Source: Lactarius indigo (lineage: Eukaryota; Basidiomycota; Agaricomycetes; Russulales; Russulaceae). From it: 64,000 nucleotides of DNA. Positions 216-40,401 of this stretch are shown piece by piece. Numbering within the stretch: the first letter of the stretch is position 1; every line of letters begins with the position of its first letter. Both the position numbers and the translations under genes were made by a program. Location: assembly GCA_025766275.1 (NCBI GenBank), contig JAFKAC010000175.1, positions 24,506 through 88,505 on the forward strand. The letters run 5' to 3'. The notes under the pieces are model-generated. The model made no database searches. It had not been told where the DNA came from and saw only the letters and a program-made list of their open reading frames with translations.

Positions 216-3200
216 ATGCCCTCATCCGATAGTGGTGCTCCGGCCGATGTTACGGGGCAGCAACCTGCAAATAATACACCTACGACTCCTGCAAATCTCC
301 AACATTCAACTGCCCCTCAGGCCGATCAACATCTCAACGTTAACGTTTCTGCACCACAAACTGCGGATAATTCAACGGTTCAGCGGGGTGTGTTGACCCG
401 TCCGCTTCACAAGCTGTAATCTCATTCGTATACTAGATGAGGTCCGCAAAGACTCTTCTGATGGACTGTGGTCGTTGTACCTCCGTGAGGTCGAGAAGGC
501 GGACAAGCGGTTAACTGAGAGTTGGAAAGGGGATACAGATGGAATTATCGTATTTGTGAGTCCTGCTCTAGTCCATCTTGTGCATGTTCGTCGTCTAATC
601 CAAATGTTGAAGACTGGTCTGTTCTCCGCCACCGTCGCTGCCTTCATTGTTGAGAGCTACAAGAAGTTATCTCCTGATCCCGGTGATACAACCAATGCAC
701 TCCTTACTCAACTATCTGTACAACTCTTTAACATCTCTCACGGGATACCCCTCCCGAGCGTCGCAGCGCCAAGCAGTCAATCATTCACACCGAAAGGCTC
801 TGCTATCAGGGTTAACGTGTTCTGGTTCCTCAGCTTGGTCCTCAGCTTGAATTGCGCGCTCTCCGCGACATTGATGCAACAATGGACCCGACGGTATCAG
901 GAACTGGCGCAGCGCCGCGGCGCAATACACAAGCACGGGCGAATGCGAGCATATATACTTGATGGCATTAGTAATTTCGGAATGGCCCGAGCCGTCGCGA
1001 CAATGCCCACGCTCCTGCACATATCGGTCTTTCTCTTTTTCGCCGGTCTCGTCGAGTTTCTTATCCCGATCCACAAGACCGTCGCGTACGTCACCCTCGG
1101 CTGCGTCGCGGTGTTCGCACTGGCATACACAATTTTGACGGTTTTACCAATCTTGTACCACGATTGCCCGTATGGCACACCCATGTCTGAACTCACATGG
1201 CGTATATCCCAGTTTTCCGTGTTCGCATTTTTTTGGACCGTCCTCAAGTTGGAGGGACCCCTGTCGAAATTATGGTGTTTTGACAACCGGCAAGCGAAAA
1301 GGTCTCTTGAATACCTAGTCAAGACGTATCGACAGAGGTTCTCGCAAAGCCTACGGGAGAGCGTTGAGTCCAGTGCCTATGAAGCCGAAACAAGGGTAGT
1401 CACGAAGGGACTTGAATGGACACTCAAAACTCTCCGTGATGACGAGGAGATCGAAGAGTTTACCGCACAAGTGCCAGGATTCTTCGACTCTCATGATGTC
1501 ACAGATGCGACATCGGCGCTCCTCCCCCTGATGTTCCCTCAACGACACACTGATATCACCTTCGGATCCCGTCTGTACCGTCTCCTCGAGACGTGTACGC
1601 AGGAGACGCCCCTTCCCGACAAAGAAATGCTCAAGGAACGTCTACTGGTTTGCCTGACCTGCATGTGGTATTTTGCAAAAGCGTACAATCTGCCTATACT
1701 TTCCCAGCCGTTACCATCCGTTTTCCCAAGCGCCCTCGCTAGTCTAGTGACCACTCATATTGTTCAGACCAAAAACGACCCCCATGTCCGTGTGATAGGA
1801 CGCTGTTTTTTGGCGTTGATCGTAAACAAGCTTGCAGATGACCTCGACTCGGAGCCACACACCGTTTCAATTAGCGATGGGAAGCTGGCGAACCTACCAA
1901 CTATCCTTGGCACCGAGAGGCATGACGTGGAGCGCCTGCGTAGCCGGCCCGGTGCCGTTGCAATCGCGAACATGATTTCACTCACGTTTGGTGAGGTCGG
2001 AAGCTTGGCCACAGACACGGTTCCGTCGGATGTGCTGGATGTGGTCCGGCAAACACTTGCCACCTTATCTCAAACTTTTCTGGCTCAAGAAAATGCAGAA
2101 GATCGGACAACCGCTATTATCAACGGCTCTGACGGCAAGTTTGAACGTATGCTCTTATCCCGCCTCCTTGACCTCCTCAAAACGTGCATACCATTGACCT
2201 CGCCTCTCACCCAAGAGGAGCCCCCGCGCGCACGCTGTCTGCAGATGTGTCTGAAGGGGCTGTGGTATTTTGGGCGAGCTTTCAATCAGCCCGGGAAGCC
2301 GGTGTCTTTACCCTCCTACATCTGCATCGCTTTCTCCAATCCAGAGACGATTCGTCTCGTACGAGAGGAACGTGATTTCTCCATTAGAGTGACAGGACGT
2401 TGTGCTGAGGCATTAGTCGTAAACAAGCTCGCGACCGACATCACCTCACGCACCGGTCCTGTCAGCGCCGAGGAGTTGGCATGCGTATCAGCTATCCTTG
2501 GCGCTGGGAGTCATGACGTGGAGCTTTTGCTTAGCCAACCCGATGCCGTCCCAATTGCAAACATGATTTCACTCACGTTTGGCGAGATCGACAACTTGGT
2601 CACAGACACGGTTCCGTCGGATGTGCTAGATGTGGTCCGACAAACACTCGCCATCTTCTCCCAAGCTATTCCGGTTCAAGAGAACGCAGAAGATCGGACA
2701 ATCGCTATCATCAATGGTTCTGACGGGAAGTTTGAGCACATGCTCCTATCCCGCCTCCTTGAACTCCTCAAAACGTGCATACCATTGACCCCGTCTCTCA
2801 CACAAGAGGAGCGCACGATCTGTCTGCGGATGTGCCTGAAGGGCTTGTGGCACTTTGGACGAGCGTTCAATCAGCCTGGGAAATCACTGGGAGTGCCTTT
2901 GGCGTCCGACATCTGCATCGCTTTCTCCAATCCAAAGATGACCCCTCTCATACGCGAGGAACGTGACTTCTCTGTCAGGGTGATAGGACGTTGTGCTGGG
3001 GCGTTGGCCGTAAACAAGCTCGCGACTGACATTATCATACGCGCCGGTCCGGTCCGCGCTGAGGAGCAGGCATGCTTATCAGCTATCCTTGGCACTAAAA
3101 GCCATGACGTGAAGCCTTTGCTCAGCCATCTGGATGCGATCAAATTTACGAATATAGTTTTCCTCGCGTTGGACAATGTCAGCCCCTTCCGCTCTGACGG

Positions 3201-5858
3201 AGTGCCATTGGATGTGCTGGACGTGACCAAACAGACGTTCAGTATCCTCACTCAGGCCCTTCCAGATGAACTGAATACCAAGATGCAGCTAGATCCGACA
3301 AGTATTCTGACGGGTGTTTCCGGCGGTCAGTATGGACTCATATTCTGATCCCGTCTAAGAGGTTTAAATGTGCACATCAGGGACTTCGTATCACACGGCT
3401 GAAATGTACAACAACTTTTCACGCGTGTGTCTGAAGAACCTGTGGAGTTTTACAAGAACATACAATGGACCCACCGGGAGCTCGTTGCCATTGCCACCTT
3501 ACGTCTGCATCGCGTTCGCTAATCCAGAGATGGCTCGTCGTATACGCCCGGAAGGTGACCTCGCCGCCCGTGAGATAGGACGTTGTGTTGGGGCATTGGT
3601 CGTAAACAAGCTCGCGACCGACATCACCTCACGCACCGGTCCTGTCAGCGCCGAGGAGTTGGCATGCGTATCAGCTATCCTTGGCGCTGGGAGTCATGAC
3701 GTGGAGCTTTTGCTTAGCCAACCCGATGCCGTCCCAATTGCAAACATGATTTCACTCACGTTTGGCGAGATCGACAACTTGGTCACAGACACGGTTCCGT
3801 CGGATGTGCTAGATGTGGTCCGACAAACACTCGCTATCTTCTCCCAAGCTATTCTGGTTCAAGAGAACGCAGAAGATCGGACAATCGCTATCATCAATGG
3901 TTCTGACGGGAAGTTTGAGCACATGCTCCTATCCCGCCTCCTTGAACTCCTCAAAACGTGCATACCATTGACCCCGTCTCTCACACAAGAGGAGCGCACG
4001 ATCTGTCTGCGGATGTGCCTGAAGGGCTTGTGGCACTTTGGACGAGCGTTCAATCAGCCTGGGAAATCACTGGGAGTGCCTTTGGCGTCCGACATCTGCA
4101 TCGCTTTCTCCAATCCAAAGATGACCCCTCTCATACGCGAGGAACGTGACTTCTCTGTCAGGGTGATAGGACGTTGTGCTGGGGCGTTGGCCGTAAACAA
4201 GCTCGCGACTGACATTATCATACGCGCCGGTCCGGTCCGCGCTGAGGAGCAGGCATGCTTATCAGCTATCCTTGGCACTAAAAGCCATGACGTGAAGCCT
4301 TTGCTCAGCCATCTGGATGCGATCAAATTTACGAATATAGTTTTCCTCGCGTTGGACAATGTCAGCCCCTTCCGCTCTGACGGAGTGCCATTGGATGTGC
4401 TGGACGTGACCAAACAGACGTTCAGTATCCTCACTCAGGCCCTTCCAGATGAACTGAATACCAAGATGCAGCTAGATCCGACAAGTATTCTGACGGGTGT
4501 TTCCGGCGGTCAGTATGGACTCATATTCTGATCCCGTCTAAGAGGTTTAAATGTGCACATCAGGGACTTCGTATCACACGGCTGAAATGTACAACAACTT
4601 TTCACGCGTGTGTCTGAAGAACCTGTGGAGTTTTACAAGAACATACAATGGACCCACCGGGAGCTCGTTGCCATTGCCACCTTACGTCTGCATCGCGTTC
4701 GCTAATCCAGAGATGGCTCGTCGTATACGCCCGGAAGGTGACCTCGCCGCCCGTGAGATAGGACGTTGTGTTGGGGCATTGGTCGTAAACAAGCTCGCGA
4801 CCGACATCACCTCACGCACCGGTCCTGTCAGCGCCGAGGAGTTGGCATGTGTATCGGCCGTCCTTGGTGTTGGGAGTCATGACGTGAGACTTTGCCTTCG
4901 CCGGCCTGGCACTGTCGAGCTTGTGAACATGGCTTTCCTCGCGTTGGGCGATGTCAGCTCCTTAAAACCCAGCAAAGTGCCGCGCGACGTGCGCGATGTG
5001 CTCCAACAGACGCTTGGCACCCTCACTCAAGCTCTTCCGGCTGAAGAGAACGTTGATCTACAGGTAGATCAGATGGACGCCCACATCGACGCTTCTAACA
5101 ACAATTTCGAACGCACCGTAGTATCCCGCCTCCACAGCCTCCTCAAGACGTGTACATCAGGCGCCTCGCCCCTTACGGAAGAAGTGCGCAGGAGCTGTCT
5201 GCGGGTTTCTCTGAAGAGCCTCTGGCGTTGTGGCAAAGCGCACCATCAACTCGATACTTCCGATCCGTTGCCGTCTTATTTCCCTCTCACCCTTGCGAGT
5301 CCAAATATTATTGTTTACCTTCGGACCGAACAAGATCCCGTTGCCCGGATGCTCGGATGCTGCTTTGGAGCCTTGATCGCAAGTAAACTCGTGGACGATC
5401 TCGGGTCACCCACTTCCCTTGGTGGCTATGTCCAAGGCGCGGAACTGGCATGCATATTAGCTATCCTTGGTATAGAGAAACGTGGAGATTCACCGTTACC
5501 TTTACCCCACCTGCTCCACTTTATCAATTTCTGGAATGTCGTTTCCCTCATGTCAGGCGAGAGCGACCTCTCGTTCACCGCGGCTGGAATACCGGCAGAC
5601 ATGTTGGACATAGCCCAAGACACACTGCACATCCTCGCAGACCATCTTTCCGAAAGTATGTCCGTATTCGAGGGCTTGCCCATGGACCAGCGGCAGTTGC
5701 CGCAGGAAATCTATTCCGGAGTTGTGAACGCGCTGCGCTCCGATCAGCCTAACGACCAAACGATGGAGACAATAGACCAACTGCGGCAGATATTGGAAAC
5801 ATTACCATCCACGGAGGAGAGGATACAAAATACATCAATGCAGAATCTCGGACCTTGA
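216..5858 (+). CDS. DUF6535-family membrane protein with about seven C-terminal repeats
   Basis: Function is unknown. The N-terminal third is the DUF6535 membrane region, with hydrophobic stretches near nt 815-870, 1015-1060 and 1085-1160 and the RRYQELAQRR motif after the first. It is followed by about seven repeats of roughly 200 residues (starting near nt 1560, 2140, 2735, 3381, 3920, 4564 and 5110). Each repeat has LL-TC, CLK-LW-F/C, CIAFSNPE-like, GRC-ALVVNKLA and SAILG-SHDV blocks. Three long open frames look like three genes, but introns at 388-436, 556-612, 3326-3380 and 4509-4563 join them in phase into 1809 codons including stop. Intron 556-612 sits where the paralogues at 27230-27279 and 40020-40074 have theirs. 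The other three fall in sequence that is coding in sister copies. The start at 216 is the first ATG of the upstream frame. If those introns are not spliced, the locus is a pseudogene with a 5' frameshift and two nonsense lesions. Family assignment is firm; intactness is not. Confidence 0.68.
2416..4848 (+). repeat. 1183-bp tandem duplication inside the DUF6535 gene
   Basis: Bases 2416 to about 3666 recur at about 3599 to 4849 with a period of 1183 bp, so two full units lie side by side followed by the first ~66 bp of a third. I noticed only two differences, both C in the first copy and T in the second (2652/3835, silent; 2672/3855, Pro to Leu). Each unit holds about two protein repeats plus the 55-bp candidate intron, so the event adds protein repeats in frame once splicing is allowed. 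The near identity points to a very recent duplication or to gene conversion. Confidence 0.93.
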
Positions 5859-38198: not shown

Positions 38199-40401
38199 TT
38201 ACAGGGAGTGACGCTGCGTTGCGACGGCTCGTACTGTAGTACAACGGAAACCTGCCTCGCTTGCAACCAAGCCATCACCAATACCGCTATCTGGTGCACC
38301 TTCAGTCCGCACTTGATTCTCGCGCGATTGCTGCGGCCCATGAGGAATGTTGGTCTGTGGCTCCTGTGCGGGTTGAGGTTTAGGAAATGCCATAGCCCTC
38401 GTTGGCAGTTTGTCCGATATCTGTCGCAGCTCGTCTTTGAGCCAATTGGGAACCTTGGAATATATCTCGTGGAACTGTGCGATCTGAGGCGGGGGCAGGT
38501 CGGCGTGGATCTTGTCAATAAGAACCTTAGAGAGAATGTTGAGTGTCTTTTTGAACACGTCCAGCACATCCGACGGTATTTTGTCACCGACTAATGAGTC
38601 GGCGTCTACCAACATGAGGGAAACGATGTTCGCAAGTTCGATGGCGCCAGGCTCGCCAAGCCAAGACATTACCTCACGGCTGTCGGTCCCAAGGATAGCC
38701 GATAAACACGCGAGCACCCCTTCAGTCACTCGAACACGGCGCGAGTCAATGTCGGCTGAAAGCTTCTTTACGACCAACGCCCCGAAACAACGTCCTATGA
38801 CACGCGCAGCCAGGTCCTCTTCTGCCTGAATTCGATGAGTCATCTCGGGACTGGCGAAGACGATGCGGACGTAAGAGGGTAAGGGTTCCGGGTTCTCTGG
38901 CTGATTGTACGCCTTTCCACAATACCACAGGCTCCTCAGACACACCCGCAGACGGTTCTTGCGCTTTTCTTCGGCGAGGGGTGAGGTCCCTGGTATACAA
39001 GTCTTGAGGAGGTCGTAGAGACGAGATCCAAGGATGGGGTCGGTCGCCGACTGGTCGGACATCAAGGGAAGGATTGCCGAGGTCGCATCCGGGACGGCTT
39101 TGGAGTCGAAAAATCCTGGTACGCGTTCGGCAAAGTCTTCAATCTCTTTGTCTTCATCGAGAGCTGTAAGCGTCCATTCAAGTGCGTCCTTATCTACAGT
39201 CGATGGGGCGTCAGTAGCACTGAGCTCGACACTTTTCCGTAGACCATCCGAAAGCCATTTACGACGCATAGTGACCTGTATCTTGAGCGTCTCCCTCCAC
39301 TTGGTAGGACCAGGAATCCCCGTCGCTTGCTGGTGAGTCAAACGCCATAGGGACAACAAAGGCCCGTGAAATAGCCCCTCAACCCCTCGGATGGCCAAAA
39401 GGATTCTGAGCACGAAAAATTGGGATAGACGCCATGTGATTCCGGACAGTGGCGTGCGATACGGGCAATTGAGGTATAGGTTCGGTGAAATCGTCAAAAT
39501 TGCGTACGCAAGAGCGAACAGAGCAATCCAGCCGAGAGTGAAGTACGCGACGGTAGTGTTGATGGGGATAAGAAAGTCGACGAGACCGGCGAAGAAGAGG
39601 AAGACCGATAGGTGTAGGAGCACAGGCATTGTCTCGATGGCTCGGGTCATTCTGAATCCTTTTATACCATCGAAGATATACGCTCGCATACGAGCACGCT
39701 TATGAGGTGCGCCGCGGCGCCGCGCGAGTTCCTGATATCGTCGGGCCCATTGTTGCATCAATGTTGCCGAAAGTGCGCAAGTCAAGCTGAGGACTAAGCT
39801 GAGGAACCACATCACGTTGACTCTGACGGCAGAAGCTGTCGGCTTGAACGGCTGGCTGTTCTGCGCTGCAACGCCCGCGAAAGGTGTTCCGTTGGAGTTG
39901 TTGGCAAGTTGCTGAGATATTTGGGTAAGGAGCGCATTGGTCGTAACGCCGGAATCGGGAGATAGTTGCTTGTAGCTTTCGATGATGAAGGACGCAACGG
40001 TGGCCGAGAACAGACCAGTCTTCGTCATGTGCATTAGGTGAAGTGAATCAGAAGGTTGAGGGATGGGCACTCACAAACACGAGGATTCCCTCTGTATCCC
40101 CCTTCCAATTCTCAGTTATCTCTTTATCCTCCTTCTCAGCCTCAGTGAGGTACAACATCCATAACCTGCCAGAAGAGTCTCCATAGTTCTCGCCTGAAAA
40201 GCGAATGAGAACACGACCTGTGAAACGGCGAAACAGCATACCCCGCTGAGCGTCTGTGACAGGTAGCAGCGCGGGAGCATCCCCATGGTTATTGGTAGTA
40301 GCCTGAACCTGTGTACCGGGATCCGGAGGCTGAACGCCTAGAGGAAAAGTAGTAGGGCCAGTTTGAACATCGATGTTCACATGCGCGCTGAGTGAATCCA
40401 T
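38199..40401 (-). CDS. Intact DUF6535-family membrane protein with one repeat unit
   Basis: Two exons (40075-40401, 38199-40019) joined over the conserved family intron give about 715 residues, the cleanest member in the window. The N-terminus contains QRGMLFRRFTGRVLIRF and WMLYLTEAEKEDKEITENWKGD. The membrane region contains TGLFSATVASFI, VMWFLSLVLSLTCALSATLMQQWARRYQELARRRG, LLHLSVFLFFAGLVDFLI and FTLGWIALFALAYAIL. After it comes a single ~200-residue repeat (LYDLLKTCIPGTS, CLRSLWYCGKAYNQPE, GRCFGALVVKKLSADI, CLSAILGTDSREV, SDVLDVFKKTLNILS). The tail is Pro/Gln-rich. It serves here as the reference for judging damage in the other copies. Biochemical role unknown; membrane location is predicted from the spans. 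Confidence 0.85.

Follow-up and report, generated by a model that had tools for sequence, protein, structure and literature searches.

A coding segment of a DUF6535 repeat gene that probably became an intron and was multiplied by repeat duplication in Lactarius indigo

Intronization, by which exonic sequence turns into an intron through new splice sites with no insertion of DNA, is itself already known and was reportedly the subject of works by Irimia and by Catania and Lynch, both in 2008. The process has been described as rare, with five cases among the 28,256 introns studied in Cryptococcus (Roy 2009, PMC2740785), and in fission yeast most intronization candidates were disproved by transcripts (PMC3629103), a warning that applies equally to the case from L. 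indigo presented here. A model examined in Paramecium (PMC9612004) predicts that coding blocks made of whole codons are the first to be spliced and that stops are gained last. Introns may also be gained by internal or tandem duplication (PMC3443670, a review; PMC4974935), and intragenic duplication raises the intron number of a gene (PMC3443670).

The L. indigo locus appears to combine exonic sequence turned into an intron via new splice sites, with no inserted DNA, and an in-frame stop in most copies. Unlike in the cases of PMC2740785 and PMC3629103, which are individual introns compared across species, the coding ancestor seems to survive in the same gene and the intron has been multiplied. 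The 60-nt block, now carrying a TGA and a deletion, resembles the Paramecium model; that study, as outlined in PMC9612004, offers genome-wide statistics, whereas in L. indigo both ends of the path are seen as homologous copies. At its outset, such an in-frame segment spliced out of a coding exon would presumably have been an exitron as outlined in PMC4484396. The present introns differ from exitrons in no longer being coding: a length of 55 nt does not correspond to whole codons, and each of the six copies of 54 nt has a stop; none of the 61 intron copies surveyed below is both open and a multiple of three. In contrast to the duplication-made introns covered by the general account in PMC3443670, duplication here copies an existing intron, and the splice sites are not AGGT-derived. 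Among the titles and abstract openings listed from one literature collection, none described the amplification of an intronized repeat; DUF6535 appears there in one study, on Flammulina.

The window, meaning the whole stretch of 64,000 nucleotides that was analysed, contains a gene whose DUF6535 domain was matched at C85:24974-25570 in a search of the L. indigo genome (E 6.0e-55) and is followed by repeats of ~591 nt. Its features, with the coding segments identified by alignment, are the following:

216..5858, plus strand: DUF6535 repeat gene, exons 216-387, 437-555, 613-3325, 3381-4508 and 4564-5858
556..612, plus strand: upstream intron of the spliced model, 57 nt, no in-frame stop
1552..1605, plus strand: coding counterpart DITFGSRLYRLLETCTQE in the first, most diverged unit
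2135..2194, plus strand: homologous coding segment, 60 nt, GKFERMLLSRLLDLLKTCIP
2416..3666, plus strand: first copy of a two-unit duplication, period 1183
2726..2785, plus strand: homologous coding segment, 60 nt
3326..3380, plus strand: predicted intron copy 1, 55 nt, G/GTCAGT ... CTGAT ... CAG (slash, splice position), phase 1
3599..4849, plus strand: second copy of the two-unit duplication, period 1183
3909..3968, plus strand: homologous coding segment, 60 nt, copy of 2726-2785 by the duplication
4509..4563, plus strand: predicted intron copy 2, identical in sequence to copy 1
5101..5160, plus strand: homologous coding segment, 60 nt, in the last unit, CAG at its end

With the four introns removed, the gene translates as a single frame of 1809 codons, stop counted (5427 nt), the sole stop being terminal, just as the preliminary description of this DNA had stated. 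Its account of 3326-3380 and 4509-4563 was likewise borne out: both are 55 nt long, run from GTCAGT to CAG, carry an in-frame TGA and, when removed, join their flanks in frame, while the same segment is coding in other units, namely in the four 60-nt segments listed above. The reported duplication at 1183 bp was also recovered, since 2416-3666 and 3599-4849 match over 1251 bp at this period with 2 mismatches; a tandem-repeat scan covering periods up to 500 detected no repeat. Within the array the unit spacing is 591-592, with the intron present or absent. Among the 14 GT-AG pairs of 45-75 nt near the lesion, two restore the frame, 3326-3380 being one of them, and frame joining at this junction, taken alone, is therefore only suggestive. 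The upstream intron at 556-612, whose length is a multiple of three, is read through within a 983-aa open frame; many paralogous DUF6535 matches hold a single internal stop, which perhaps sits at the equivalent intron.

A second DUF6535 gene lies at 38505-40019 of the window on the minus strand (C85:63010-64524) and has an equal-scoring match on C1 near 1,860,000. The other haplotype of the first gene's surroundings (C1:1815600-1829000; L075, L073) is 92-97% identical outside that gene; at the gene's place it carries a truncated DUF6535 repeat remnant, the longer pieces of which are 71-75% identical, and then ~4.3 kb of different sequence. No intact allele of the window gene was found at this corresponding place on C1.

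The L. indigo genome (90.3 Mb, 291 contigs) was then searched for related repeats, and window DNA 3150-3640 matched 76 places. From fetched stretches we assembled 21 loci, counting both haplotypes; these were chosen by their likeness to the window, and several are partial. They provided 106 repeat junctions out of 131 profile hits, with 25 first-unit or truncated hits left out. Only two types of junction were seen among the 106, with no intermediate or third type. Forty-five were coding, with a segment of 57, 60 or 63 nt (mode 60), no GT-AG and no internal stop, and 61 were intron-like, with GT-AG ends, a length of 49–59 nt (mode 55) and a frame that is not open. When the segment is cut out, recognisable repeat sequence on its two sides comes together in one frame at 60 of the 61 intron copies, C112:4254 being the exception, and 59 copies are free of stops for 60 codons in both directions; in C1_905k:2731 a stop follows soon after the junction. 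Frame joining on this scale makes chance an unlikely explanation. Introns occur in 18 of the 21 loci, at 1–9 intron units per locus. The intron-free loci are C166 and C228, both partial with one junction each, and C1_739k, with two complete coding junctions. Removing the 7 loci taken as second alleles, with alleles assigned by position and similarity, left 73 junctions, of which 38 are intron and 35 coding; without any C241 locus the intron copies number 34.

Some of these arrays deserve separate mention. Stops just upstream precede two of the 45 coding junctions, both in C112, and in the array at C112:1772438-1781000 (L007, L071) three of the nine complete junctions show stops or a lost frame; this array may be decaying. 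Other recent duplications of intron units were found at C1_1121k (L061; period 1189, 599 bp, 7 mismatches) and at C1_1179k (L069, L011; period 598, 507 bp, 4 mismatches). In the genome as a whole there are at least 150 DUF6535 places (150 of the 924 candidates scored).

The intron and coding consensus sequences are identical at 36 of 55 aligned bases. When the interior of each intron was compared with the coding consensus, 28 of 38 beat 99% of their own shuffles, and 10 of 38 remained below the 1% level. Judged from these alignments, the intron sequence is homologous to coding sequence of its relatives, as intronization requires. Net insertion of DNA is absent, the segment being 60 nt in coding and 55 nt in intron copies with unchanged unit spacing in the window. 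The preliminary description had ascribed the difference to a one-base deletion, but both the lengths and the alignment give 5 nt, as a single gap common to 61 of 61 intron copies and found in none of the 45 coding copies. An alignment of family repeats, which that description had proposed as a way to date the lesion, points, for the repeats of the 21 loci, to an old one. Its central idea, that coding sequence became an intron and was then duplicated, is supported; the notion of a recent lesion rescued in the window gene alone is not, as the state is common to paralogues and appears in gene models of other Lactarius species, and a private recent lesion is ruled out by a deletion common to 61 of the 106 junctions. 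Nor was there a single duplication, given the 1–9 intron units in each of 18 loci.

In 19 of the 38 introns the first in-frame stop is a TGA at one and the same codon, and in 3 it is a TAA there; 12 have their first stop at another position and 4 have none. The consensus TGA sits in CTCTGATCC and thereby also forms CTGAT, a putative branch-site motif; an exact CTRAY motif is present in 19 of 38 introns versus 1 of 35 coding copies. The donor reads GTCAGT in 28 of 38 introns. At the donor position 7 of 35 coding copies read GGAAGT, and 14 of 35 end in CAG, so that in many of them the acceptor is ready and the donor close. The variability of codon positions 1, 2 and 3 is 0.83, 0.73 and 0.96 in coding copies and 0.82, 0.79 and 0.73 in introns.

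Among deposited proteins, H4582DRAFT_453563 (P0001) is 100% identical to the window protein over 64% of the query. Its gene model has its start within the array, does not include the DUF6535 domain and terminates at intron copy 2. At 3326-3380 it is spliced exactly as proposed for copy 1; at 4509-4563 it fits a donor 4 nt further on and meets an early stop. As two identical copies are spliced differently in this model, the annotation is no proof of splicing. In the L. psammicola protein P0002, coding and spliced units alternate just as they do in the window gene. For P0001, AlphaFold2 with 23 sequences (mean pLDDT 70.8, below 50 in the first 42 residues) predicts a repeat protein made up entirely of helices. 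In this model the segment forms a helix of 16–17 residues at 56-71, 253-269 and 629-645, while the spliced junction has no counterpart of this helix. In terms of the model, what is gone from spliced units is thus one predicted helix, which would then be missing from the folded protein. A fold search with the model returned weak alpha-solenoid matches, the best being transportin (E 5.3e-4, TM 0.15), which suggests that the repeat protein may resemble an alpha-solenoid; since the matches are weak, we claim no named fold.

The two states extend beyond L. indigo. In 48 proteins of 11 Lactarius species, a count that omits blocks separated by over 90 residues or lacking a recognised partner found 138 junctions. 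Of these, 69 were short, at <25 aa with a mode of 16, and the other 69 were long, with a mode of 36; excluding L. indigo, the numbers were 56 and 57. The two modes lie 20 residues apart, which equals the 60 nt. Nine of the 11 species have short junctions of 15–18 aa, and L. hengduanensis and L. sanguifluus have off-mode short ones only. In 109 further proteins, with mostly ena and jgi as sources, 2 of 178 junctions were short, a scarcity that presumably reflects frames called without splicing. All named matches were from Lactarius, among the 120 matches listed in each of three protein searches. The species compared span, as we take it, more than one subgenus. Within L. indigo the intron recurs even in so remote a paralogue as the C112 locus, at 51% protein identity. 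From this distribution we infer that the intronization predates the divergence of the sampled Lactarius species.

Given these observations, we consider it likely, as far as sequence comparison can tell, that a 20-codon helix was intronized once, long ago, and that duplication of the repeats has since increased the number of copies of this intron. Ancestrally, every repeat unit would have encoded this helix, with a consensus near GKFERILVSRLLDLLKTCIP. In one internal unit the 60-nt in-frame block would have become a phase-1 spliceosomal intron, its donor being gained by a change from a G/GGAAGT-like sequence to G/GTCAGT and its acceptor CAG pre-existing, as it does in many coding copies. Because 60 nt are whole codons, splicing need not have come after a lethal lesion: early splicing would have dropped one helix with the frame unshifted. 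The TGA, created by a substitution that would also complete the CTGAT branch-site motif, and the deletion would have arisen after or alongside splicing, the later 5-nt deletion fixing the non-coding state. Duplication would subsequently have raised the number of intron units, with shuffling of them both inside single paralogues and from one paralogue to another, and the 1183-bp duplication in the window would be one late event of this multiplication.

A tree of the junction flanks, built from 80 + 80 aa beside the junction (160 aa, segment excluded, 73 rows, no outgroup), needs a single change of state and places all 38 intron rows in one group, with a support of 89/80 and recovery in 90% of bootstrap trees, and one change is also sufficient in a tree of the 60 aa downstream only. 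Trees of more distant parts of the units need more, namely four changes with the 80 aa upstream only and five with 130 aa downstream and the first units as outgroup; in the latter tree the window intron units group with the window coding units. These numbers would suit several independent intronizations of one hot-spot segment in different units, for which the coding copies, with their GGAAGT near the donor consensus and their CAG ends, offer a favourable starting point. We regard such repeated origins as unlikely, however, since the 5-nt gap is identical throughout, most introns share the GTCAGT start, and both junction-flank trees have one change each. Moreover, with an AU p of 0.40 a single intron clade is not rejected in the 130-aa tree, and we read the mosaic unit bodies as one origin followed by shuffling of bodies within genes, which would account for the extra changes. 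The reverse course, with an intron at the start and coding copies derived from it by exonization, is compatible with the flank tree, which lacks an outgroup and so gives no direction, but is quite unlikely on other grounds. With the first units, all of them coding, as outgroup, the root of the family falls on the coding side (12 of 14 form one clade, 2 of 14 lie elsewhere), and a SRL..LL..C motif is retained in the first, second and last coding units; together these point to a direction from coding to intron. In addition, all three complete junctions of C1_739k and C228 are coding, and the third codon position is the most variable one in coding copies but not in introns, although the difference is modest. 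Compared within Lactarius, the coding state comes out as the ancestral one.

A single intronization of coding sequence also has to be weighed against a dead locus in which the segments are simply unspliced lesions, the recently duplicated pseudogene that the preliminary description had left as its alternative. The truncated remnant, which is all that the other haplotype has at the place of the window gene, and the stops in some related arrays would fit such a locus. Against it stand the 1809 codons open to a terminal stop once four introns are removed, the frames joined at 60 of 61 homologous junctions and the identical alternation in L. psammicola P0002. The dN/dS of window unit bodies versus paralogues was 0.32–0.51 (12 comparisons), which indicates purifying selection, makes a long-dead pseudogene unlikely and differs from the value near 1 that the preliminary description had named as speaking against an intron in a living gene. 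Within the window gene dN/dS was 0.42, 0.64 and 0.52 (3 comparisons), and between alleles of 5 other loci it was 0.16–0.60. As the window gene displays neither relaxed selection nor a broken frame, we think a pseudogene very unlikely. Many similar introns in one genome could also bring to mind an origin from outside, through an introner or another insertion, or an AGGT tandem duplication, but this is scarcely credible here: the unit length in the window is unchanged, the intron aligns to coding copies over its length, and an intron 26-mer allowed up to 3 mismatches had 20 matches in the genome, every one within these arrays (reversed control, 0). An introner would require copies at non-homologous sites, and an intron formed by AGGT tandem duplication would have added length to the intron units; both were rejected.

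Taken as a single intronization, the L. indigo arrays bear on the origin of new spliceosomal introns, which is still debated and for which the case for intronization rests largely on single introns compared across species. We find it likely that one intronization before the sampled Lactarius species diverged was spread by unit duplication and shuffling, and not by transposition, to dozens of introns in one genome (38, or 34 without C241). The coding ancestor would then still be present beside them in these genes, and the outcome would be two kinds of protein repeat, one that has the helix and one that lacks it. By the dozen, this genome contains the 60 bases both as coding sequence and as intron-type sequence, alignable over their length, with a lesion common to the intron copies that can serve for dating. 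Such an array makes it possible to test directly by which changes the donor, the branch site and the acceptor came about, whether splicing began by skipping a single helix in frame, and how duplication makes many introns from one.
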